Shown: positions 16,614 through 30,660 of the stretch, one piece after another | How positions within the stretch are numbered: the stretch's first letter is position 1 | Layout of the letters: each line of letters begins with the position of its first letter | NCBI GenBank assembly: GCA_027483945.1 | Contig: JAIXTM010000018.1 | Location: 62,001 to 126,000 of the forward strand | Length of the DNA stretch: 64,000 nt | Direction: 5' to 3' | DNA from: Hyphomicrobiales bacterium | Lineage (GTDB): Bacteria; Pseudomonadota; Alphaproteobacteria; Rhizobiales; Beijerinckiaceae | Position numbers and translations under genes: made by a program | Notes under the pieces: generated by a model | Database searches by the model: none | What the model was told of the DNA's origin: nothing | The model's input: only the letters and a program-made list of their open reading frames with translations

Positions 16614-17648
16614 ATGCAGATCAATCCCCCTTACCTGATGTTCCTCGGTGACGTGCCCGATCAGCTGGCCGCGAAGACCGCCTCGGGCATCGTGGACTGG
16701 CGCAGGGACTGGTGCATCGGCCAGCTTCGCCTGGCGGGCTGCAAGGCGGATCTGAAAATCGCCGACATGTCCGTCGCGGAGGCCGCGAAGGCGGGCGCGA
16801 AGACGATGATCGTCGGCGTGGCCAATGCCGGCGGGGTCCTGCCCGACCATTGGGTCCGCACCATCGTCGAGGCGCTCGACGCCGGCATGGACGTGGCCAG
16901 CGGCCTTCATACGCGCCTCGGCTCGAAGGTGGAGATCGCCGACGCGGCCCGCCGCAACGGCCGTCAGCTCTTCGACGTGCGCCATTCCGACATGCGGTTC
17001 GACACCGGCAAGGGCGACAAGCGGCCGGGCATGCGCCTGCTGACCGTCGGCACCGATTGTTCGGCCGGCAAGAAGTACACGGCGCTGGCGCTGGAAAAGG
17101 CGATGCGGGCGCGCGGCTTCGACGCCGATTTCCGCGCCACCGGCCAGACCGGCATCTTCATCTCCGGCCGGGGCGTCGCCATCGACGCCGTCGTGGCCGA
17201 CTTCATATCGGGCGCCGTGGAGTGGATCTCCCCGGCTGCCGACGCCAACCACTGGGACCTGATCGAGGGTCAAGGCTCGCTCTATCACCCGTCCTTTGCC
17301 GGCGTGTCGCTCGGCCTGCTTCACGGCGCGCAGCCGGACGCCTTCGTGGTCTGCCATGAGCCGACCCGCACCAACATGCGCGGCGTGAAGACCCCGTTGC
17401 CGATGATCCAGCAGGTCATCGACCTCACCATCGCCACCGGCCAGCTTACGAATCCTGCCATCCGCCCCGTTGGCATCGCGGTGAATACCCAGGCGCTGGG
17501 CGAGGACGAGGCGCGTGCCTATCTGGCCAAGGTCTCGGCGGAGCACAACCTGCCGGCCAGCGACCCGATCCGCTACGGCGTCGACGTGATCGTCGACCGC
17601 ATCGCCGCCGATTATCCGCAGACGCTGCGGACCAAGGCCGCGAGCTGA
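16614..17648 (+). CDS. dgcN: D-glutamate N-acetyltransferase DgcN (DUF1611)
   Basis: Protein of 344 residues of the DUF1611 family. In Pseudoalteromonas DgcN acetylates D-glutamate to N-acetyl-D-glutamate with acetyl-CoA, the first step of a D-glutamate catabolic route. The N-terminal half is a Rossmann-like region (IVGVANAGGVLPDHW); the central VGTDCSAGKKYTALALEKAM resembles a dethiobiotin-synthetase P-loop, and VVCHEPTRTNMRGV follows. ATG 16614 has GGAGAG seven bases upstream; the earlier in-frame ATG at 16515 lies within the regulatory gap. The gene runs five bases before dgcA, so the two are one operon. The assignment rests on family recognition plus this gene order. Confidence 0.82.
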   Translation: MQINPPYLMFLGDVPDQLAAKTASGIVDWRRDWCIGQLRLAGCKADLKIADMSVAEAAKAGAKTMIVGVANAGGVLPDHWVRTIVEALDAGMDVASGLHTRLGSKVEIADAARRNGRQLFDVRHSDMRFDTGKGDKRPGMRLLTVGTDCSAGKKYTALALEKAMRARGFDADFRATGQTGIFISGRGVAIDAVVADFISGAVEWISPAADANHWDLIEGQGSLYHPSFAGVSLGLLHGAQPDAFVVCHEPTRTNMRGVKTPLPMIQQVIDLTIATGQLTNPAIRPVGIAVNTQALGEDEARAYLAKVSAEHNLPASDPIRYGVDVIVDRIAADYPQTLRTKAAS

Positions 17649-17653
17649 CGACC

Positions 17654-18634
17654 ATGCGCCGCCTCTCCGTCGCGATCGAGACGTTCCCCATCGCGGGCAA
17701 GTTCACCATTTCCCGCGGCAGCCGCACCGAGGCGGTCGTCGTCACCGCGACGATCAGCGAGGACGGCACCGTGGGACGCGGCGAATGCGTGCCCTATGCT
17801 CGCTACGGCGAGACGGTGGAAGGCGTGCGCGACCTCATCGCGGAGCAGGCCGAGCGCATCGCCTGGGGCTGCACCCGCACGGAACTGCTGGCCCGGATGA
17901 AGCCCGGCGCTGCGCGCAACGCCATCGATTGTGCGCTATGGGACTTCGAGGCGAAGCGGACCGGCGCCGGCGTTGCGGAGATCGCCGAGATTGCCGCGCC
18001 CCGGCCTGCGACGACCTGCTACACGATCAGTCTCGGCGATCCCGAGACCATGGAGGCAGCCGCCCGCGCGGCTGCCGCACGACCTATCCTCAAGGTCAAG
18101 CTTGGCGGCGCGGGAGACGCGGCCAGGATCGCGGCGGTGCGTCGGGGGGCGCCCGCCGCGATCCTCGTTGTCGATGCCAACGAGGCCTGGGATGCTTCGA
18201 CCATCGGCGACAACCTCAAGGCCTGCCGCGACGCCGACGTGAAGCTGATCGAGCAGCCGCTGCCGGCGGGCAAGGACGAGTTGCTGGCCGATATCGAGCG
18301 CGTGATCCCGATCTGCGCCGACGAGAGCATGCACGACCGCAAGAGCCTGCCGGACGTGGCGCGCCGCTACGACGCGATCAACATCAAGCTGGACAAGACC
18401 GGCGGCCTCACCGAGGCGCTTCTGGTCGCCCGCGACGCGCGCGCTCTGGGGCTACAGATCATGGTCGGCTGCATGGTGGGCACCTCCCTCGCGATGGCGC
18501 CGGCCATGTATCTGACGCCGGGCGCCGCTTTCGTCGATCTCGACGGACCGCTCCTGCTGGCCAGAGATCGCGATCCCGGCCTCCTCTTCGAAGGTAGCAC
18601 CGTTCATCCTCCGCAGGGCGCGCTCTGGGGCTGA
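17654..18634 (+). CDS. dgcA: N-acetyl-D-glutamate racemase DgcA (enolase superfamily)
   Basis: Enolase-superfamily protein of 326 residues, of the muconate-cycloisomerase / dipeptide-epimerase subgroup. Metal ligands are D174 (VVDANE), E200 (LIEQPLP) and D223 (CADES). The flanking catalytic lysines are K149 in the KVK motif and K245 or K248 in NIKLDKTGG. Alone it would be called a dipeptide epimerase; next to dgcN the better call is DgcA, which racemises N-acetyl-D-glutamate to N-acetyl-L-glutamate. It ends 11 bases from the convergent GMC oxidoreductase gene. Confidence 0.8.
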   Translation: MRRLSVAIETFPIAGKFTISRGSRTEAVVVTATISEDGTVGRGECVPYARYGETVEGVRDLIAEQAERIAWGCTRTELLARMKPGAARNAIDCALWDFEAKRTGAGVAEIAEIAAPRPATTCYTISLGDPETMEAAARAAAARPILKVKLGGAGDAARIAAVRRGAPAAILVVDANEAWDASTIGDNLKACRDADVKLIEQPLPAGKDELLADIERVIPICADESMHDRKSLPDVARRYDAINIKLDKTGGLTEALLVARDARALGLQIMVGCMVGTSLAMAPAMYLTPGAAFVDLDGPLLLARDRDPGLLFEGSTVHPPQGALWG

Positions 18635-18644
18635 TAGGCGGCGG

Positions 18645-20267
18645 CTAACGCCTTTCCTCTAGGATCATGGCGCTCGCCTTCTCCGCGATCATGATCGTCG
18701 GCGAGTTGGTGTTGCCGGACGTGATCGTCGGCATGATCGAGGCATCCGCGACGCGCAGGCCCTCCAGCCCCCGCACCTTGAGGCGCGCGTCCAGCACTGC
18801 GCCCGGATCGCCGTCCGCGCCCATCCGGGCGGTGCCAACCGGGTGGAAGATCGTGGTGCCAAGATCGCCCGCGGCCTGGACCAGGCCCGCATCGTCCACG
18901 ATGTCCGCGCCGGGCCGGTATTCCTGCGGGCTGAATCTCGCCAGCGGCGGCTGGGCGACGATGCGACGCGTGAGCCGGATCGAGTCGACAGCGACGCGGC
19001 GGTCCTCGTCGGTCGACAGATAGTTCGGACGGATGGACGGAGCGCCGCTTTCCCGGTCCTTCAGATGGACGGAGCCGCGGCTGGTCGGGCGTAGGTTGCA
19101 CACGCTCGCGGTGAAAGCCGGGAACGGATGCAGCGCGTCGCCGAACTTGTCGAGCGACAGCGGCTGGAAGTGGAACTGCAGGTTCGGCGTCGCGTAGTCC
19201 GGCGACGAGCGGGCGAAGGCGCCGAGCTGGGACGGCGCCATGGTGAGCGGGCCGCGCCGGCGAAGCGCATAATCCAGCGCCATGAGCGCGCGCTTGAGCG
19301 GCACCGCATAGTCCGCGTTCAGCGTCCGCACGCCGGACACCTTGTAGACCGGGCGGAGCTGGAGATGATCCTGCAGGTTCTCGCCGACGCCCCGGCTCTC
19401 CACGATGAGCGGGATGCCGTGGGAGGCGAGCACGTCCGGCCGGCCGATGCCCGACATTTCCAGCAGAACGGGCGTGCCGATGGCTCCGGCCGCCAGCACC
19501 ACCTCGCCGCCGGCCCGTGCGGTGAAACGCTCATCGCCGCGCCGATAGGCCACGCCGACCGCCCTGCCCGCCTCGACCATGACGCGGTCGACCGTGACGC
19601 CGGTCTCCAGCCGCAGGTTCGGGCGGCCCAGCGCCGGGCGCAGGAAGCCGCGCGCCGCGCTCCAGCGCCTTCCGCGCCTCTGGTTGACCTGAAAATAGGC
19701 CACGCCGGAATTGTCGCCCGTGTTAAAATCCTCGACGCGCGGGATGCCGGCCGAGACCGCCGCATCGCGGATCGCGTCCAGGATGTCCCAGCGCACGCGG
19801 GGCAGCTCGACCCGCCACTCGCCCCCGCCGCGATGCACCCCGTCCACCGGAACCATATGGTCCTGGTGGCGCAGGAAGTACGGCAGGACGTCGTCCCAGC
19901 CCCACCCGGCAAGACCGCGCTGGCGCCACCCATCGTAGTCGGCCGCCTGGCCGCGCATGTAGATCATCGCGTTGATCGCGGATGAGCCGCCGATGACCTT
20001 GCCGCGGGGATAGGCCAGATCGCGCCCGTTGAGGCCCGGCTCCGGCTCGGTCCTGAACATCCAGTCGGCGCGCGGATTGCCGATGGCGAACAGGTAGCCG
20101 ACGGGGATGTGGAACCAGATCCAATTGTCGCGCCCGCCTGCCTCCAGCAGGAGGACGCGGTTGCGCGGATCGGCAGAGAGCCGGTTCGCCAGCACGCAGC
20201 CGGCAGAGCCCGCCCCGACCACGATGTAATCGTATTCGCCCTCAGGCCTGCCTTCGTCACCCGCCAT
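18645..20267 (-). CDS. GMC-family FAD-dependent oxidoreductase
   Basis: Protein of 540 residues, the length of choline dehydrogenase-like GMC enzymes. The N-terminal FAD dinucleotide site is [20 protein letters not shown], followed by GMC signature 1 ([20 protein letters not shown]) and signature 2 ([15 protein letters not shown]). The C-terminal active site has the catalytic His in [12 protein letters not shown] and Asn in [10 protein letters not shown]. It should oxidise an alcohol to an aldehyde; choline is one option, but there is no betB or betI beside it, so the substrate is open. Confidence 0.85.
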
Positions 20268-20425
20268 GGTCGATCCGCGTCTCGCTTGCCGGCCGATCCT
20301 GCGTCAGGCGCGCGCGGCGCGCCACGGGCATCCCAACGCATCCGGTGTCGCCGGAACGTCACGGGCGTCGCGGCACCGCGAGCGTGCGGCGTCGGTACGC
20401 GAGAACCGCCGGCCCTTGCCCCGTC

Positions 20426-21844
20426 TCAGCCCACCGACATATCCAGCGGCGGCTCCACCTCCGGCGGCAGGGGCGTCGCGTAGGGCGTGCGCGCGGTGCG
20501 GGCCGCGAGATCGGCCTTGGCCTCGGCGATCAGGGCCGGGTTCTCGAGAGCGCGGACGGCGAGGGTCGCCATGGCCTTGGCCACGTGCACCATGGCCTTG
20601 TGCGCGGCCGGCGCCTTGCCTTGGGCGACAACCTGCCAGGTATGGAGCGGCGTGCCGACCGCCATGGTCGGGGCATGGGCCTGGACTGTCGGCACGACCC
20701 AGCTGACGTCGCCCAGATCGGTGGAGCCCAGCATGGTCTGGCGCGGCGTGTCGAAGGGCACGGTGAAGTCCGCGAGCGGCACGTCGCGCGGCGCCATGCC
20801 GATGGCGCGATAGACCGCCTCGATGTCGCCCTGCGTGAGGGTCGCCTGGATGCGGCGCGCGAAGTCGCGGTCGGCCTCGTCGAAGGACGGTGGTCCAAGT
20901 TCCTCCAGGATCCCGTGCAGCGCCTTTTCCAGCGGCGCATTGCCCACGATGTTGGAGACCGCGCTGACGATGCGCATCTCCATGCGCGTCTCGGTCATGA
21001 GGGCGGCGCCCTCCGCGACCTTCTTCACGCGCTCCACCAGTTCGAGCATGCCGGGAAGGTCGCGGGCGCGGATGGAATAGCGGACGCGGGCTTTCGCCTG
21101 CACGACGTTGGGCGCGATGCCGCCCGTCTCCAGGATCGCATAATGGATGCGCGCGTCGCTCGGCATGTGCTCGCGCATGTAATTGACGCCGACGCTCATC
21201 AGCTCGACCGCGTCGAGCGCGGATCGGCCCAGATGCGGCGAGGCCGCCGCGTGGGAGGCGCGGCCGAAGAAGGTGAAGTCGGCCCGCGTGTTGGCGAGCG
21301 ACACCGGCGGCGTCACTTCCCAGAAGCTGTAGGGATGCCAGGAGATCGCGATGTCCGCGTCGTCGAAGGCCCCGGCGCGGACCATGAAGGCCTTGGCCGC
21401 GCCGCCCTCCTCCGCCGGGCAGCCGTAATAGCGCACGCGACCCGGACGGCCCGTCGCCTCGAGCCAGGCCTTCGTCGCGGAGGCGGCGAGCAAGGCCGCC
21501 GAACCGAGAAGATTATGGCCGCAGCCATGGCCGTGCCCGCCGGCTTCGACGGGACTGTGACGGTCGAGTCCCGCTTCCTGCGAAAGGCCCGGCAGCGCAT
21601 CGTATTCGCCGAGGAAGGCGATGACGGGTCCGCCCTCGCCGGTTTCGCCGATCAGCGCGGTCGGGATGCCGGCGACGTTGTCGGTGACGCGGAAGCCCTG
21701 CTCCAGGAGCGCCGCGCGATGCTCGGCGGCCGAGCGCGCCTCGGTGTAGCAGACCTCGGGGGTCGCCCACACCGCGTCGGCCAGCGCGACGAAACGATCC
21801 GCCAATGCATCCACGTGCCGCCAGGGCGGGCTCATATTGTCCAT
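20426..21844 (-). CDS. M20-family amidohydrolase, AbgB-like
   Basis: Zinc-dependent amidohydrolase of 472 residues, close in layout to AbgB (p-aminobenzoyl-glutamate hydrolase subunit B). Metal-site motifs are visible: AGGHGHGCGHNLLG, the Glu pair in CPAEEGGAAK, and a histidine in ISWHPYSFW. The dimerisation domain (about 190-310) begins FFGRASHAAASPHLG. The start at 21844 is set by AGGAGG five bases upstream. It hydrolyses an N-acyl amino acid or related amide. Because it lies near dgcN-dgcA it is a candidate for the missing N-acetyl-L-glutamate deacylation step, though it is on the other strand and separated by the GMC gene. Confidence 0.8.
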   Translation of the reverse strand: MDNMSPPWRHVDALADRFVALADAVWATPEVCYTEARSAAEHRAALLEQGFRVTDNVAGIPTALIGETGEGGPVIAFLGEYDALPGLSQEAGLDRHSPVEAGGHGHGCGHNLLGSAALLAASATKAWLEATGRPGRVRYYGCPAEEGGAAKAFMVRAGAFDDADIAISWHPYSFWEVTPPVSLANTRADFTFFGRASHAAASPHLGRSALDAVELMSVGVNYMREHMPSDARIHYAILETGGIAPNVVQAKARVRYSIRARDLPGMLELVERVKKVAEGAALMTETRMEMRIVSAVSNIVGNAPLEKALHGILEELGPPSFDEADRDFARRIQATLTQGDIEAVYRAIGMAPRDVPLADFTVPFDTPRQTMLGSTDLGDVSWVVPTVQAHAPTMAVGTPLHTWQVVAQGKAPAAHKAMVHVAKAMATLAVRALENPALIAEAKADLAARTARTPYATPLPPEVEPPLDMSVG

Positions 21845-22048
21845 CGCGTCCTCCTGAGAGGGCTTGTTGAACACCCGTGGGCAAGGCGGCGTCCAGCCCC
21901 AACGCGCGGGGCCCGGACCAGACCCGTATGGGCGTTCGCGCCGTTGCGCGGACATGTCCCGGATGGGCCTCAGGCCGACTCTGCCTGCAAAAGAGGCGGT
22001 TGGCGCGCATCGCGGCGCCGTCCGGGCCGGTCTGCCGACCATTTCGTC
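21845..22048. other. Intergenic region upstream of the amidohydrolase gene and candidate sRNA
   Basis: This 204-base stretch must hold the promoter of the M20 gene (minus strand). Reading frames that cross it are Arg-rich with no ribosome-binding site. I see no gene in it. Confidence 0.4.
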
Positions 22049-22082
22049 TTGAGCCGAGTCGGGGCCGGGGCTACCGTTGCGT

Positions 22083-22178
22083 CATGGAAGGCCGATTGGC
22101 GTCGGCGTTCTTGCCCTTCGCGGGGCGTTTCCTCCTTGGACTTCGGACCGCCGCTTCCCGCGCGCGGTCCTTTTTCTG
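22083..22178 (+). ncRNA. Candidate small regulatory RNA with an anti-Shine-Dalgarno segment
   Basis: No protein gene on this strand ends nearby, yet a strong terminator is present. Reading from a possible promoter (TTGAGC at 22049, 16-base spacer, CTACCG at 22071), the transcript would hold hairpin 1 (GCCGA/TCGGC, 22091-22106), hairpin 2 (GCCC/GGGC, 22113-22126), an unpaired TTTCCTCCTT (22128-22137), then the terminator. The exposed UCCUCC can pair with Shine-Dalgarno sequences, as in several rhizobial sRNAs. The 5' end is a guess. Confidence 0.4.
22145..22175 (+). terminator. Orphan intrinsic terminator, plus strand
   Basis: GGACCGC (22145-22151) pairs with GCGGTCC (22164-22170), with an inner 3-bp extension and a TTCCC loop, followed directly by five T (22171-22175). 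The nearest plus-strand gene ends 3.5 kb upstream, so it must end another transcript, the candidate sRNA. Confidence 0.75.
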
Positions 22179-22268
22179 TCCGGCGCCTCGACCCGAATCA
22201 CAAGCCAGGGCAACGGCTTGCGCGGCGGAGCTGGCACATCGAATCAGATCATGTCTCGAAGAGGGGCG

Positions 22269-22343
22269 TGGCGCGGTCTACGGGAATCGAACCCGTCTTC
22301 CCAGCGTGAAAGGCTGGTGTCCTAACCGATAGACGAAGACCGC
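22269..22343 (-). tRNA. tRNA-Glu (TTC anticodon)
   Basis: On the minus strand acceptor GCGGTCT pairs perfectly with AGACCGC. The anticodon stem CCAGC/GCTGG encloses CTTTCAC, giving anticodon TTC. The T loop is TTCGATT. Discriminator G is followed by an encoded CCA (22269-22271). Confidence 0.95.
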
Positions 22344-22403
22344 ATCCGGTGCGCGGGGTCCCTATAGATGGCTTCGCCGCGCGGGGCAAGCGAGCTTCAC
22401 CGC

Positions 22404-24194
22404 TCATCCGCGCAGGGTCGCCGCGGCGTCGGCGACGCGCAGGTCCACGCGTTCCGCGCCGCCCCAGCGATCGAGCGACAGGTTGCCCGCCAGATGCACG
22501 CGCTGGCCTCGGGACGCCAGCAGGAAGCGGCCAAGATCGCTCTCGGCTGACCGGAAGGCGACGAAGCCGGCGGTCACTCCGTCGCCCGACCGGACGCGCC
22601 CGCGGACATGGCCCTGCCCGACGACCGAGACATCCGTGAGAACGTGGTCGGCCAGGACGAAGACCGGCTCCGGGTTGCCTTGCCCGTAAGGCCCGGCGCG
22701 ATCCAGCGTCGCGACGAGGGACGGCTCCAGGGCTGCGGCGGCCAGCGTCCCGTCCACGGGGAAATCGTTGACCGCGACCCTGTCGGCCATGGCCTGCCGC
22801 AGGCGGGCGTCAATAAAGGCGGCGAAGGTCGGCAGGCCGCCCGCCGGCACGGTGATGCCGGCCGCCATGGCATGGCCCCCGCCCTTCACGGCGACGCCCT
22901 CCGCGACGGCGGCCCGCACCGCTGCGCCGAGATCGATGCCGGGCACGGACCGTCCGGACCCCGTACCGCCGCCAACGGCGTCCAGCGCGAAGGCGAAGGC
23001 GGGGCGCCCGGTGCGCTCCTTGATGCGCGACGCAATGAGCCCGACGACGCCCGGGTGCCAATCCGGATCGCCGAAGACGAGGGCACCGAGGCCAGGATCG
23101 TCGTGCAATGCGCGCTGGGCCAGCGCTTCGGCCTCCACGACAGCGGCCTGTTCGACGACCTGCCGCTCGCGGTTAAGCCGGTCGAGTTCGGCAGCGATGG
23201 GCGCGGCGAGCAACGGATCGGCAGTGGTCATCAGCCGCGCGCCAAGCGCGGCGTCGCCGATCCGGCCGCCGGCATTGATGCGCGGGCCGATCAGGAAGCC
23301 GAGATGCCAGGCCTGGGGCGGCCCGCTGAGCGCGGCCATGTCCAGGAGGGCGTTGAGGCCCGGCCGGCGGCGCTGCGCCATCACGGCGAGGCCCTGACGG
23401 ACGAAGGCGCGGTTGAGACCGACCAGCGGCACGACGTCGGCGACGGTGGCGAGCGCGACGAGATCGAGGGCGTCGCTGAGGTCGCGGCGGGGAAAGCCCC
23501 GTTCGGCCAGCGCGCGGTTCAGCGCCACCACCGTGAGGAAGACGACACCCGCGGCGCAGAGATGGCCAAGGCCGGAAAGGTCGTCCTGCCGGTTCGGGTT
23601 CACGATGGCCAATGCCGGCGGCAGCGTCTCGGGCGCCTGGTGGTGGTCGAGGACCAGCGTGTCCATACCGAGCCGCATCGCCTCGGCGATCGGCTCCTGG
23701 CTTGCCGTGCCGCAATCGACCGTGACGAGGAGATCCGCGCCCTCCTCGCGCAACTGGCGGATGGCGGGAACGTTGGGACCATAGCCTTCCGTGATCCGGT
23801 CTGGGATGCGGATGACGGCCTCGAGCCCGTGGTCCCGCAGGAAGCCTGCAAGGACAGCGGCGCTCGTCGCCCCGTCGACGTCGTAGTCGCCGAAGATCGC
23901 GACGCGCTCGCGGCGCTCCACCGCCTGGACCAGCCGCGCGACGGCCGGCTCCATGTCGCGCAGGACAACCGGATCGGGCAGCAGGTCCCGCAGCTTCGGC
24001 TCCAGATGGCCCGGCAGCGCATCGGCGCGGATGCCGCGCCCGGCAAGGACCCGGGCGAGCACGTCGCCGGTGCCGTGCAGCTGGGCGATGGCGAGGGCCT
24101 CCACCTCGGCCCGCGCATCGCAGCGGGCCACCCAGCGGCGGCCCAGCGCCGAACGTTCGACGCCGAGCAGGGAGCGCGGGGACGAGGCTTCCAC
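22404..24194 (-). CDS. recJ: Single-strand-specific 5'-3' exonuclease RecJ
   Basis: DHH-family exonuclease of 596 residues, slightly longer than E. coli RecJ (577). Motif I is GDYDVDGATSAAV, and the DHH motif that gives the family its name is LDHHQAP near residue 185. The DHHA1 part shows GGGHAMAAGI near residue 440, and an OB domain follows to the C-terminus. RecJ acts in recombinational and mismatch repair in the cytosol. It lies downstream of the GNAT, glpX and hom genes on one strand; hom-glpX-recJ is a conserved rhizobial order. Confidence 0.95.
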   Translation of the reverse strand: MEASSPRSLLGVERSALGRRWVARCDARAEVEALAIAQLHGTGDVLARVLAGRGIRADALPGHLEPKLRDLLPDPVVLRDMEPAVARLVQAVERRERVAIFGDYDVDGATSAAVLAGFLRDHGLEAVIRIPDRITEGYGPNVPAIRQLREEGADLLVTVDCGTASQEPIAEAMRLGMDTLVLDHHQAPETLPPALAIVNPNRQDDLSGLGHLCAAGVVFLTVVALNRALAERGFPRRDLSDALDLVALATVADVVPLVGLNRAFVRQGLAVMAQRRRPGLNALLDMAALSGPPQAWHLGFLIGPRINAGGRIGDAALGARLMTTADPLLAAPIAAELDRLNRERQVVEQAAVVEAEALAQRALHDDPGLGALVFGDPDWHPGVVGLIASRIKERTGRPAFAFALDAVGGGTGSGRSVPGIDLGAAVRAAVAEGVAVKGGGHAMAAGITVPAGGLPTFAAFIDARLRQAMADRVAVNDFPVDGTLAAAALEPSLVATLDRAGPYGQGNPEPVFVLADHVLTDVSVVGQGHVRGRVRSGDGVTAGFVAFRSAESDLGRFLLASRGQRVHLAGNLSLDRWGGAERVDLRVADAAATLRG

Positions 24195-24201
24195 GGCGCC
24201 C

Positions 24202-24654
24202 TCAGAGCATCTTGCGGTACTGGATGAAGCCGGACCGCGTCGCGACGCGGTCGTACAGCGCGCGCGCCGTGTGGTTGTGCTCCTGGGTCAGCCAGTAGAC
24301 GCGGCTCGCGCCGGCCGAGCGGGCTGCTTCCTCGACCGATGCGATCAGCGCCCGCGCGATGCCGCCGCCCCGCGCCGCCTCGTCGACATAGAGGTCCTGG
24401 AGGTAGCAATAGGGCCCGCGCTTCCAGGTAGACGGGTGGTAGAGAAAATGGACGAGGCCGACGGGAGAACCGTCCGCCTCGGCCACAAAGCCGTGGATTT
24501 CGCCGTCGGGTTCCATCAGGCGCGACCAGGTATGGTCGGTGACGTCGGCCGGCACGCTCGCTTCGTAGAAGGTCAGGTAGCCCTGCCACAGCCGCTCCCA
24601 GGCCGCTCGGTCGCCGGGCCACAGGGGGCGGATGACGGGCGCCGCGCCGGCCAT
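24202..24654 (-). CDS. GNAT-family N-acetyltransferase
   Basis: Single-domain GNAT of 150 residues. The acetyl-CoA binding motif A appears as LYVDEAARGGGIARALI, preceded by strand 4 (PYCYLQD) and followed by a C-terminal region with EHNHTARALYDRV. Substrate unknown. Its ATG overlaps the glpX stop as TGATG, so it is translationally coupled to glpX, and seven bases separate its stop from recJ. The GNAT is an insertion in the otherwise conserved glpX-recJ pair. Confidence 0.85.
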   Translation of the reverse strand: MAGAAPVIRPLWPGDRAAWERLWQGYLTFYEASVPADVTDHTWSRLMEPDGEIHGFVAEADGSPVGLVHFLYHPSTWKRGPYCYLQDLYVDEAARGGGIARALIASVEEAARSAGASRVYWLTQEHNHTARALYDRVATRSGFIQYRKML

Positions 24655-25652
24655 CAATCGAGGCTGAACTTGCTCAGCTCGCGATGCTCGCCGCGAATGC
24701 GGCGCACCGTGCCGGTGACGGACCGGTACACGACGGTCTCGGTCTCGATCACGTCGCCGCGGAACTTCACGCCGGACAGGAGCGCGCCGTCGGTGACGCC
24801 CGTCGCCGCGACGACCACGTCGCCGGAGGCGAGCTCCTTCATGTCGTATTTCTTGTTGGGGTCCTTGACGCCCATCGCGTAGGCGCGGGTGCGGCGCTCT
24901 TCGGTGTCGAGGATCAGCCGGCCCTGCATCTGGCCGCCGACGCAGCGGAGCGCGCCGGCCGCCAGCACGCCCTCGGGCGCCGCGCCGATGCCGAGATAGA
25001 TGTCGATGCCGGTCTCTTCCGGCATGGTGGTGAAGATCACGCCGGCGACGTCGCCGTCGGTGATGAGACGGACGCCGGCGCCGGTGGCGCGCACCGCCGC
25101 GATAAGGTCCTGGTGCCGGGGGCGGTCGAGGATCAGCGCGGTGATCTCGCTCGGCTTCACGCCCTTGGCCTTGGCCAGCGCATGGATGTTGTCGGCAGGC
25201 GAGGCGTCGAGGTCGACGACGCCCTTCGGATAGCCCGGCCCGACGGCGATCTTGTGCATGTAGACGTCCGGCGCGGCGAGCAGCGTGCCGGACTCGGCCA
25301 TGGCCATGACGGCGATGGAGCCGGGGATGTCCTTGGCGCAGAGCGTCGTGCCTTCCAGCGGGTCGACGGCGATGTCCACCTTGGGGCCGGCCTGGTTGCC
25401 GACGCGCTCGCCGATGAACAGCATCGGTGCCTCGTCGCGCTCGCCTTCGCCGATCACGACCGTGCCGTCGATGGGCAGGCGATTGAGCTCGCGGCGCATG
25501 GCGTCGACCGCCGCCTGGTCGGCGGCCTTCTCGTTGCCGCGGCCGCGCCAGCGTGCGGAGGCGACGGCGGCCCGCTCGGTGACGCGCACCAGCTCCATCG
25601 AGAGAACGCGCTCGATGAGCTGTTCGGGCATCACGGTGAGCTGCTTGGTCAT
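24654..25652 (-). CDS. glpX: Class II fructose-1,6-bisphosphatase
   Basis: Metal-dependent phosphatase of 332 residues, normal for GlpX. Active-site motifs are VIGEGERDEAPML, the DPLEGTT signature and GAAPEGVLAAGAL. It removes the 1-phosphate of fructose 1,6-bisphosphate in gluconeogenesis; in methylotrophs and autotrophs the class II enzyme may also cleave sedoheptulose bisphosphate. It is cotranscribed with the overlapping GNAT and follows hom by 74 bases. Confidence 0.95.
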   Translation of the reverse strand: MTKQLTVMPEQLIERVLSMELVRVTERAAVASARWRGRGNEKAADQAAVDAMRRELNRLPIDGTVVIGEGERDEAPMLFIGERVGNQAGPKVDIAVDPLEGTTLCAKDIPGSIAVMAMAESGTLLAAPDVYMHKIAVGPGYPKGVVDLDASPADNIHALAKAKGVKPSEITALILDRPRHQDLIAAVRATGAGVRLITDGDVAGVIFTTMPEETGIDIYLGIGAAPEGVLAAGALRCVGGQMQGRLILDTEERRTRAYAMGVKDPNKKYDMKELASGDVVVAATGVTDGALLSGVKFRGDVIETETVVYRSVTGTVRRIRGEHRELSKFSLD

Positions 25653-25726
25653 CGTCTCTCTCGCTCCTCAAGTCCGGGCGGTCCGGCGCCCGGCCCTTGT
25701 AGCGCGCTTGTAGGGGGTGTGAAGCC

Positions 25727-27043
25727 CTATTCGCGTTCGATGCGGATGAGCTGGGGGGCTTCCGCGATATGGCCGTCGGCGATGACCTTCTCGAGCGCGG
25801 CGCGGATCGCGGTCTCGGACGTGGCGTAGGTCGTCAGCACGACGGGGACGGCGCGGTGCGAGCGTTGCTCGGGATCGTCGTTCGGCGTCTCCGCCCGGCG
25901 CTGGACGATGCTCTCGAGGGAAATGTCCGCCTGGGCGAGGCGCGTCGCGATGGCGGCCGCGGCGCCCGGCCGGTCGAGCACCGACAGACGGACGTAATAG
26001 CCGCCCTCGTGGCGCTGCATCGGCGCGCGCTTGAGCTTGTCGAGCCGCGCGGTCGGCAGGCCGAATGGCGCTCCGACGCGGCCGCGCGCCACGTCGGAAA
26101 TGTCGGCAACAACCGCGGAGGCGGTGGCGTCACCGCCGGCGCCGGGGCCGACGAGCGTGATCTCGCCGACGGCATCGGCGTCGATCGTCACCGCGTTGGT
26201 GACCCCCATGACCTGCGCGATCGCCGAATCCTTCGGCACCATCGTCGGATGGACCCGCTGCTCGATGCCGCTCTTGCTACGTTCGGCGACGCCGAGGAGC
26301 TTGATGCGAAAGCCGAGATCGTCGGCCATCTTCAGGTCGAGCGGCGTGATGGAGGAGATGCCCTCCACATAGATCGCGTCAGCGTCGATCTCGGTCCCGA
26401 AGGCGAGGCTCGCCAGGATCGAGAGCTTGTGGGCGGTATCGAAGCCGCCGACATCGAAGGTCGGGTCGGCCTCCGCATAGCCGAGGCGCTGGGCGTCGGC
26501 GAGGCAGTCCGCGAAGGACAGGCCCTCCTGCTCCATCCGCGACAGGATGTAGTTGCAAGTGCCGTTGAGGATGCCGGACACGCGAATGATCTCGTTGCCG
26601 GCCAGCGCTTCCCGCAGGGTCTTCACGACCGGGATGCCGCCTGCCGCCGAGGCCTCGAACGCCAAAGCCACGCCGCGCTTCTCGGCGAGCTTCGCCAGGT
26701 CCAGCCCGTGGGCGGCCAGCAGCGCCTTGTTGGCGGTGACGACGTGTTTGCCGGCATCGAGCGCGGCTTCCACGGCGGCCTTGGCGACGCCGTCGGACCC
26801 TCCGATCAGCTCGACGAAGCAGTCGAGGTCCTGCGACCTCGCCATGGCCACCGGATCGTCGAACCAGGCGCAGCGGTCGATGTCGATCCCGCGGTCCCGG
26901 TTCCGGGTGCGCGAGGAGACGCCGACGAGGCGAATGCCACGGCCGCCGCGGCCGAGCGCGTTCTCACGCCGCGAGAGGATGCGCACGACCGATGCGCCCA
27001 CGGTCCCGAGGCCGGCGACGCCGACCCGTAGCGGCTGATCCAT
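25727..27043 (-). CDS. hom: Homoserine dehydrogenase
   Basis: Enzyme of 438 residues that reduces aspartate semialdehyde to homoserine for threonine and methionine synthesis. The NAD(P) fold begins with VGVAGLGTVGASVV, the catalytic domain contains GILNGTCNYILSRM, and a C-terminal ACT domain (about 355-435, RLSVLDRPGAAAAIATRLA) suggests feedback control by an amino acid, normally threonine. It follows the AlaC-like aminotransferase gene by 27 bases, probably as one operon. Confidence 0.96.
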   Translation of the reverse strand: MDQPLRVGVAGLGTVGASVVRILSRRENALGRGGRGIRLVGVSSRTRNRDRGIDIDRCAWFDDPVAMARSQDLDCFVELIGGSDGVAKAAVEAALDAGKHVVTANKALLAAHGLDLAKLAEKRGVALAFEASAAGGIPVVKTLREALAGNEIIRVSGILNGTCNYILSRMEQEGLSFADCLADAQRLGYAEADPTFDVGGFDTAHKLSILASLAFGTEIDADAIYVEGISSITPLDLKMADDLGFRIKLLGVAERSKSGIEQRVHPTMVPKDSAIAQVMGVTNAVTIDADAVGEITLVGPGAGGDATASAVVADISDVARGRVGAPFGLPTARLDKLKRAPMQRHEGGYYVRLSVLDRPGAAAAIATRLAQADISLESIVQRRAETPNDDPEQRSHRAVPVVLTTYATSETAIRAALEKVIADGHIAEAPQLIRIERE

Positions 27044-28827: not shown

Positions 28828-30660
28828 ATGGCCGACAGGCCCGCCAGGGAAACGCCAGGCCAGCAGGCGCCGGACCCGGAGACGCCTGCGCCGGACATGC
28901 CGGACTTCGAGCGGCTGTCGCAGAACGCGTCGCGCCTCGTCGAGGAGGCGACCAAGGCGACGATCGCCTATCTGAAGCCGATCCAGGACGGCCAGGCGAC
29001 CGGCGGCATGGCCGACGAGGTGGGCGAGATCGTCAAGACGCTCGGCCATGTGGCGGAAAGCTGGATGATCGATCCGGCCCGCTCGATCGAGGCCCAGAAG
29101 ACGCTGGCGACCGGCTTTATCGACCTGTGGTCGTCGACCTTGCGGAAGATGCAGGGCGAGGAGGTCGACCCCGTCGCGCCGCCCGAGCCGCGAGACAACC
29201 GGTTCAAGGACCCGGAATGGTCGGCGAACCCCGTCTTCGACTTCCTGAAACAGGCCTATCTCTTCACCTCGCGCTGGGCCGAGGACATGGTGGACCGCGC
29301 CGAGGGCGTCGACGAGCACACGCGCCAGAAGGCACGCTTCTACGTCCGCCAGATATCCAGCGCGGTCTCGCCGTCGAACTTCGTCGCCACCAATCCCGAG
29401 CTGCTGCGGGAGACGTTCAAGGAGAACGGCGAGAACCTCGTGCGCGGTATGGCGATGCTCGCCGAGGACATCGAGGCCGGCGGCGGCGAGCTGAAGCTGC
29501 GCCAGTCCGACCCGTCCAAGTTCGAGATCGGCCGCAACATCGCGACGACACCGGGCAAGGTCGTCTTCCGCAACGAGCTGATCGAGCTGCTGCAATACGC
29601 GCCGACGACGGAGAGCGTTCTAAAGCGGCCGCTGCTCATCGTGCCGCCCTGGATCAACAAGTTCTACATCCTCGATCTCAACCCCGAGAAGAGCTTCATC
29701 AAGTGGGCCGTGGACCAGGGTCTCACGGTGTTCTGCATCTCCTGGGTGAACCCGGACGAGCGGCACGCGGAGATGGGGTTCGAGGAATATATGCGCCTCG
29801 GCATCTTCGCGGCGCTCGAGGCGATCGAGAAGGCGACGGGCGAGAAGTCGGTCTCGGCCATCGGCTATTGCGTCGGCGGCACGCTGCTGGCCGTCACCCT
29901 CGCCTATATGGCGGCGAAGAAGGACAAGCGGATCGAGAGCGCGACCTTCTTCACCACGCAGGTCGACTTCACCCATGCGGGCGATCTGAAGGTCTTCGTC
30001 GACGAGGAGCAGATCAAGGCGGTCGAGGAGATGATGCAGGCCCGGGGCTTCCTGCCCGGCGGGCGCATGGCCAAGGCCTTCAACATGCTCAGGCCGAACG
30101 ACCTGATCTGGCCCTACGTGGTCAACGTCTATCTCAAGGGCCAGGCGCCCTTCCCGTTCGACCTGCTCTACTGGAACGCTGATTCCACCCGGATGCCGGC
30201 GCGGAACCATTCGTTCTACCTGCGCAATTGCTACCTCGATAACCGCCTGACCCAGGGCCAGATGGTCATCGACAACACGCAACTCGACCTGAAGAAGGTG
30301 AAGATCCCGATCTACAACCTGGCAACGCGCGAGGACCATATCGCGCCTGCGCGCTCGGTCCTGGTCGGCTCGCAGGCTTTCGGCGGGCCGGTGGAATATG
30401 TGCTGGCGGGGTCCGGCCATATCGCGGGCGTCGTCAACCCGCCGGACAAGAAGAAATACCAGTACTGGACCGGCGGCGCCGGCCAGGACGTGGAGACCTG
30501 GCTGAAGAGCGCCACGGAAAATCCCGGCTCGTGGTGGCCGCACTGGTTCGCCTGGATCGAGGCGCAGGCGCCCGAACGGGTGAAGCCGCGCGTTCCCGGC
30601 AAGGGCAAGCTCAAGCCCTTGGGCGACGCGCCGGGAACTTATGTGAAGATCAAGGCGTAA
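28828..30660 (+). CDS. phaC: Class I poly(3-hydroxyalkanoate) synthase
   Basis: Polymerase of 610 residues that builds PHA from (R)-3-hydroxyacyl-CoA on granule surfaces. The lipase-like box is GYCVGG with nucleophile C348; D503 (TREDHIAP) and H531 ([12 protein letters not shown]) complete the triad. The N-terminal domain, about residues 1-200, contains the SNFVATNPE segment. Length matches class I enzymes. ATG 28828 has AGGGAG upstream; the frame from 28756 adds 24 residues without family likeness. phaA, phaB, phaR and phasin genes are not in this window. Confidence 0.95.

Follow-up and report, generated by a model that had tools for sequence, protein, structure and literature searches.

Locus layout and putative promoter

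Does the plus strand between an M20-family peptidase/amidohydrolase gene and a tRNA gene in this Hyphomicrobiales genome carry a small RNA gene that escaped annotation, and if so, of which kind and with which likely role? A preliminary description of the window (the whole 64,000-nucleotide stretch of DNA that was analyzed) had proposed such a gene at this place: an unannotated, rhizobial-type trans-acting sRNA with an exposed anti-Shine-Dalgarno segment, preceded by a weak promoter and closed by a strong intrinsic terminator. We found this plus-strand terminator at 22145-22175, with a GGACCGC...GCGGTCC stem and a U-run in both the predicted fold and the RF00519 alignment, while a simple terminator scan did not pick it up. 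The isolation claimed for it, with no plus-strand gene upstream for 3.5 kb, agreed with the ORF list, on which (no gene calling being involved) the last plus-strand ORF taken for a gene before the sRNA ends at 18634, and two long minus-strand ORFs lie between this position and the sRNA. The M20-family gene (20426-21844, minus strand) is the 5' neighbor and divergent from the sRNA; its start is not fixed, as the ORF as listed opens at 22042. The 3' neighbor is tRNA-Glu (TTC) at 22269-22343, also on the minus strand and convergent with the sRNA.

The putative -35 box TTGAGC (22049-22054) and the putative -10 box TACCGT (22072-22077) lie 17 nt apart on the plus strand. This promoter-like pair is as weak by consensus as originally described, and a simple promoter scan of positions 17000-27000 listed no promoter-like site. 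In the genus mate, each box was kept bar one base (TTGAGA and TACCCT) at the same spacing, with 6/7 positions kept in the -35 region (22048-22054) and 7/8 in the -10 region (22071-22078), while the stretch between the boxes had changed more (11/18 columns). Given that boxes and spacing are kept, we infer a start near 22084, which would yield an sRNA of ~94 nt (22084-22177, plus strand), close to the ~95 nt proposed earlier.

The predicted fold contains the two small hairpins that had been read from the letters ahead of the pairing core: the 5' hairpin SL1 (22086-22111) and hairpin SL2 (GCCCTTCGCGGGGC, 22113-22126), the latter also present in the Rfam structure line. The folding z-score of 22083-22178 was -2.96 on the sRNA strand and -2.51 on the opposite strand; by itself, folding energy is a weak argument for an RNA gene.

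Family assignment

The covariance model RF00519 (suhB, mmgR, Makes More Granules Regulator RNA), which represents the alpha-r8 family, matched 22106-22184 on the plus strand over its whole length (model positions 1-77 of 77), scoring 50.7 bits, above the gathering threshold of 41, with an E-value of 1.8e-07 for the 64 kb window. No other sRNA family exceeded its gathering threshold in the 64 kb, where the remaining matches over threshold were three tRNAs, and the Betaproteobacteria toxic sRNA RF02278 stayed at 19.7 bits, under its gathering score of 50. The comparison with alphaproteobacterial sRNA families in Rfam, proposed as a check in the preliminary description, was thus positive. Given the full-length Rfam match, the folding z-score, and a conservation far above that of the flanks, the locus represents more than a chance arrangement, and both the candidate sRNA and its rhizobial type with an anti-Shine-Dalgarno core gained support. 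From its sequence, the locus looks like a real sRNA gene of the already described alpha-r8/RF00519 family and no new kind. This MmgR/SisA family occurs across alphaproteobacteria and has been linked to the storage and use of carbon. Among the titles and abstract openings listed for MmgR, alpha-r8, and RF00519, none concerns this locus.

The Rfam model opens at 22106, leaving SL1 outside of it. The sequence of this 5' hairpin varies among alpha-r8 copies. When 56 of them were aligned and folded together, SL2 and the terminator were recovered as consensus pairing, SL1 was not. When the 40 nt before SL2 were folded singly, however, z was below -2 in 50/88 copies vs. 7/88 for a control stretch further upstream (z was -1.26 in the window copy and -1.5 in its genus-mate orthologue). 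Members of the alpha-r8 family commonly have a 5' hairpin.

Conservation and spread of copies

The sRNA locus of the genus mate lies between the same two neighbors, a relative of the M20 gene with 88% identity and tRNA-Glu. Between both genomes, 86 of the 94 positions of 22084-22177 (91%) were identical and aligned without gaps, compared to 121/202 columns (60%) in the 5' flank and 52/101 (51%) in the 3' flank. The preliminary description had made its case depend on close relatives keeping both the hairpins and the TCCTCC segment, and neither was lost in the genus mate: all 16 positions of 22112-22127, which contain SL2, and the core were identical, while 25/28 positions were kept in the SL1 stretch (22084-22111) and 29/34 in the terminator stretch.

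Sixty genomes were searched for further copies, including the genome of the window, and 55 had an RF00519 match at E <=0.001, with 49 over the cut-off. These 49 genomes held 93 over-cut-off copies, with one copy in 25 genomes, two in 15, three in six, four in two, and twelve in one. Two copies over the cut-off were present in the genome of the window (63.2 and 50.7 bits), the window copy being the weaker. Besides the window copy, only that of the genus mate had tRNA-Glu as a neighbor among the 93. Two of the 49 genomes in which a copy exceeded the cut-off had the extra copy at this place.

Multiplication of alpha-r8 copies took other forms elsewhere. The twelve copies belong to a relative of the same family (G014; loci L023, L071, L075, L077, L078, L081, L082, L083, L085, L091, L092, and L095), and two of them have identical sequence on different contigs. 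In five relatives (L040, L028, L021, L017, and L086), alpha-r8 copies adjoin each other on the same strand, with starts 200-310 nt apart.

The pairing core

The pairing core TTTCCTCCTT (22128-22137, plus strand) sits just 3' of SL2, the place expected for the family. It carries the anti-Shine-Dalgarno motif and agrees in nine of ten bases with the published 10-nt core UUUCCUCCCU (family consensus TTTCCTCCCT; PMC12559287), the one change being a U at position 9. Most over-cut-off copies (81/93) had UUUCCUCCCU exactly. Core variants occurred in eight, of which two, the window copy and the orthologous copy of the genus mate, had UUUCCUCCUU and six differed otherwise. The remaining four gave no core reading: three are matches from a single genome, and the fourth is a copy whose upstream sequence runs off the contig, which led to a script misreading. 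An exact scan for GCGTTTCCTCCTTGGACTT in a genome collection, from which our own and very near genomes were possibly excluded, returned three records: the genus mate, a Bradyrhizobium MAG (RF00519, 41.8 bits), and a Verrucomicrobia record without a match to the family. At L084 and L094 in genome G058, three RF00519 matches start with AGCTGTTCCCCTCTGGAGG and are without the usual core, with a TTTCCTCCC stretch ~25 nt upstream of two of the three; these may represent another RNA scoring by accident, or a diverged branch.

The core had been described as unpaired, and this stood for seven of its ten bases, which had an unpaired probability of at least 0.98 in the predicted fold of the window copy. 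It did not stand for the other three: 22130-22132 (UCC) are predicted to pair weakly with 22138-22140 (GGA) around a loop, forming a 3-bp mini-hairpin.

The sibling copy and PhaR-type sites

The higher-scoring sibling in the same genome (C8, 63.2 bits) is located tail-to-tail with an N-formylglutamate amidohydrolase (FGase) gene (PF05013, 252.2 bits), a linkage missing at the window copy. An alpha-r8 copy beside the FGase gene is reported for most species (PMC12559287). Given that Caulobacter SisB-D are also located elsewhere, the absence of this linkage is no bar to family membership. The window copy and C8 have the SL1 sequence GATTGGCGT and a GGACCGC/GCGGTCC terminator stem in common, which suggests that the window copy may have arisen by duplication in its own lineage; this terminator stem was also found in two further genera (G004 and G006).

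In Sinorhizobium meliloti, PhaR was reported to shift an mmgR promoter fragment (PMC12542648), and we took the PhaR motif core YGCRNYGCR from that work. This motif was present within 80 nt upstream of the RF00519 match in 66/88 copies, vs. 2.0 expected from letter shuffles; this count replaced an earlier one with the motif TGC-N3-GCA (50/88 vs. 2.8 expected). Among copies with FGase within 1.5 kb, 42/46 had the dyad, compared to 24/42 of the others (Fisher p 0.0004, uncorrected for relatedness), which hints that storage-polymer control may be the older state and may often have been lost in dispersed copies. While C8 had two YGCRNYGCR sites upstream, neither the window copy nor its genus-mate orthologue had any in the 80 nt that precede the Rfam match. 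One site further upstream, at 22006, lies 43 nt before the -35 box and, judged by eye from the alignment, was not preserved by the genus mate. Given that a PhaR-type dyad is missing within 80 nt, the window copy is probably expressed under conditions other than those of its sibling.

Readings of the locus

We are highly confident that the window locus is a trans-acting alpha-r8 sRNA gene, an extra dispersed paralogue that was seen at this place in a single genus, besides the FGase-adjacent copy. Several of the observations above could also be expected of a decaying duplicate. In this reading, duplication produced a second alpha-r8 copy, its PhaR-linked promoter was lost, and the sequence now drifts, having hardly any function or none: the score is below that of the sibling (50.7 vs. 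63.2 bits), the core has one change, a PhaR-type dyad is missing near the promoter, and, of all copies examined, those at this place come from a single genus. Decay nevertheless seems improbable to us, as the RNA is 91% identical and gapless between flanks of 51-60% identity, SL2 and core are identical, and the promoter boxes are kept bar one base each.

Two further readings are far less probable still. In the first, there would be no free-standing sRNA gene: the locus would serve a longer transcript as its terminator or as a 3'-UTR element, or would belong to a small protein gene of the plus strand, where ORFs of 654, 151, and 82 codons cross the region; however, these ORFs pass through the terminator into tRNA antisense, the flanks that they cover are full of gaps relative to the genus mate, the nearest upstream plus-strand ORF taken for a gene ends 3.5 kb away, and the match to an RNA family is full length, so that we give this reading hardly any weight. 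In the other, the locus would belong to another sRNA family with an anti-Shine-Dalgarno motif, for example alpha-r15/AbcR or alpha-r14/NfeR1, and resemble alpha-r8 through convergence on CCUCC. Several alphaproteobacterial sRNAs have such motifs, AbcR sRNAs are described as partly homologous to RF00519 (PMC7143759), and one overlapping, lower-scoring match of a shared clan was dropped by the search tool. As predicted for the window copy, AbcR1/2 (alpha-r15) and NfeR1 (alpha-r14) are described in this source as trans-acting sRNAs with anti-Shine-Dalgarno motifs, but they have two or three of these motifs, and AbcR1/2 are 120 and 114 nt long. The window copy, with one core and a predicted length of ~94 nt, has neither the two CU-rich motifs nor the 114-120 nt of alpha-r15, and its best reported match is RF00519, over the cut-off, which makes convergence from another family a negligible prospect.

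Candidate targets

Genes for Hfq, PhaR, PhaC, and two phasins are present in the genome of the window. In published work on the family, the core pairs with ribosome-binding sites with the help of Hfq and thereby reduces translation of target mRNAs, and MmgR is reported to restrict storage-polymer granules and the phasins, either directly or indirectly (PMC12559287, PMC7143759). At the first phasin leader, the core duplex energy was equaled by 64 of 300 shuffled seeds with the window seed and by 257/300 with the canonical seed; at the second, the corresponding counts were 249/300 and 300/300. We rejected the phasins as direct targets because this pairing was not clearly better than that of shuffled seeds. 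The phaC leader was rejected as well, as 202-297 of 300 shuffles were as good at six of nine listed candidate starts. The PHB synthase gene phaC (PhaC_N, PF07167, 271 bits) is itself found in the window at 28828-30660 on the plus strand, ~6.6 kb downstream of the sRNA, with an uncertain start codon (28756 or 28828).

Searches with the core sequences were extended to the whole genome. The 12-mer CCAAGGAGGAAA, complementary to the window core and its neighboring bases, occurred genome-wide at the sRNA locus only, and no leader in the genome had a site matching the changed seed (AAGGAGGAA-N2-8-ATG, ATG starts only). For the canonical seed, there were five leader sites of the form AGGGAGGAA-N2-8-ATG, where AGGGAGGAA is a 9-nt exact complement to part of the canonical core. 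Three of these precede genes with a Pfam family, encoding an ETF-ubiquinone oxidoreductase (L099), an acyl-CoA dehydrogenase (L100), and a DctP-type binding protein (L103). For ETF-ubiquinone oxidoreductase and acyl-CoA dehydrogenase, the genus-mate leaders still had 7 and 8 nt of this complement. Among 27 leaders of other relatives, 26 kept 6 nt or fewer and one (L130) kept 8 nt; leaders were taken from 19/20 ETF loci (three without an ATG start) and 15/20 acyl-CoA dehydrogenase loci (five lower-ranking ones omitted). As the complement was hardly kept beyond the genus mate, we claim no target. The target prediction that the preliminary description had called for therefore returned no supported target, with no clear pairing excess in the phasin and phaC leaders.

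Discussion

The window locus is closest to MmgR of S. meliloti (RF00519), with which it has in common the full covariance model, the terminator, and the core with one change, in a genome with Hfq, PhaR, PhaC, and phasin genes. MmgR is reported to be 77 nt long, with a dyad between -35 and -10, and to be repressed by PhaR/AniA and activated by NtrC (PMC7143759, PMC8401924, PMC12542648). In contrast, the window copy has a predicted length of ~94 nt and no YGCRNYGCR in the 80 nt ahead of the RF00519 match. Similar to SisA-D of Caulobacter crescentus, which are described as several dispersed copies with unrelated promoters, one of them beside the FGase gene (PMC12559287), the alpha-r8 copies of this genome are dispersed, with one beside an FGase gene. 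SisA-D have UUUCCUCCCU in common, but the window copy has UUUCCUCCUU.

SisA was found to lower target reporters via pairing of its core with 5' UTRs, an effect abolished by a core point mutant, while the same paper states that no direct base-pairing was identified for MmgR itself (PMC12559287). We consider the window sRNA most likely to be a trans-acting repressor that would pair through its core with ribosome-binding sites, probably assisted by Hfq. In this mechanism, transcription would run from ~22084 to ~22177, Hfq would be bound by the U-rich end of the sRNA, UUUCCUCCUU would pair with GGAGG of ribosome-binding sites, and this pairing would block the translation of a set of carbon-metabolism mRNAs.

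What is new about this locus is small: an extra paralogue whose core differs in one base and whose upstream stretch has no PhaR dyad. It is conceivable, although we consider it unlikely, that these features mark a rewired sibling, which would be out of PhaR (carbon-storage) control and whose core changed to contain CCUCCUU, partly in the mini-hairpin loop. Such a sibling could repress strong ribosome-binding sites more generally and with different timing, or be bound less well by a CrfA-type sponge. CCUCCUU is the anti-Shine-Dalgarno run of 16S rRNA; a search with the 16S 3' end pattern gave no matches.

The unaided reading of raw sequence was able to pick out an sRNA gene of a known kind. Across the order, the stretches upstream of alpha-r8 copies are strongly enriched in PhaR-type sites, and more so in FGase-linked copies. 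In this genome, the window copy and its FGase-adjacent counterpart form a natural alpha-r8 sibling pair that differs in promoter and one core base, which would be useful for asking why alpha-r8 is so often duplicated, and whether siblings split their work by timing or by targets.
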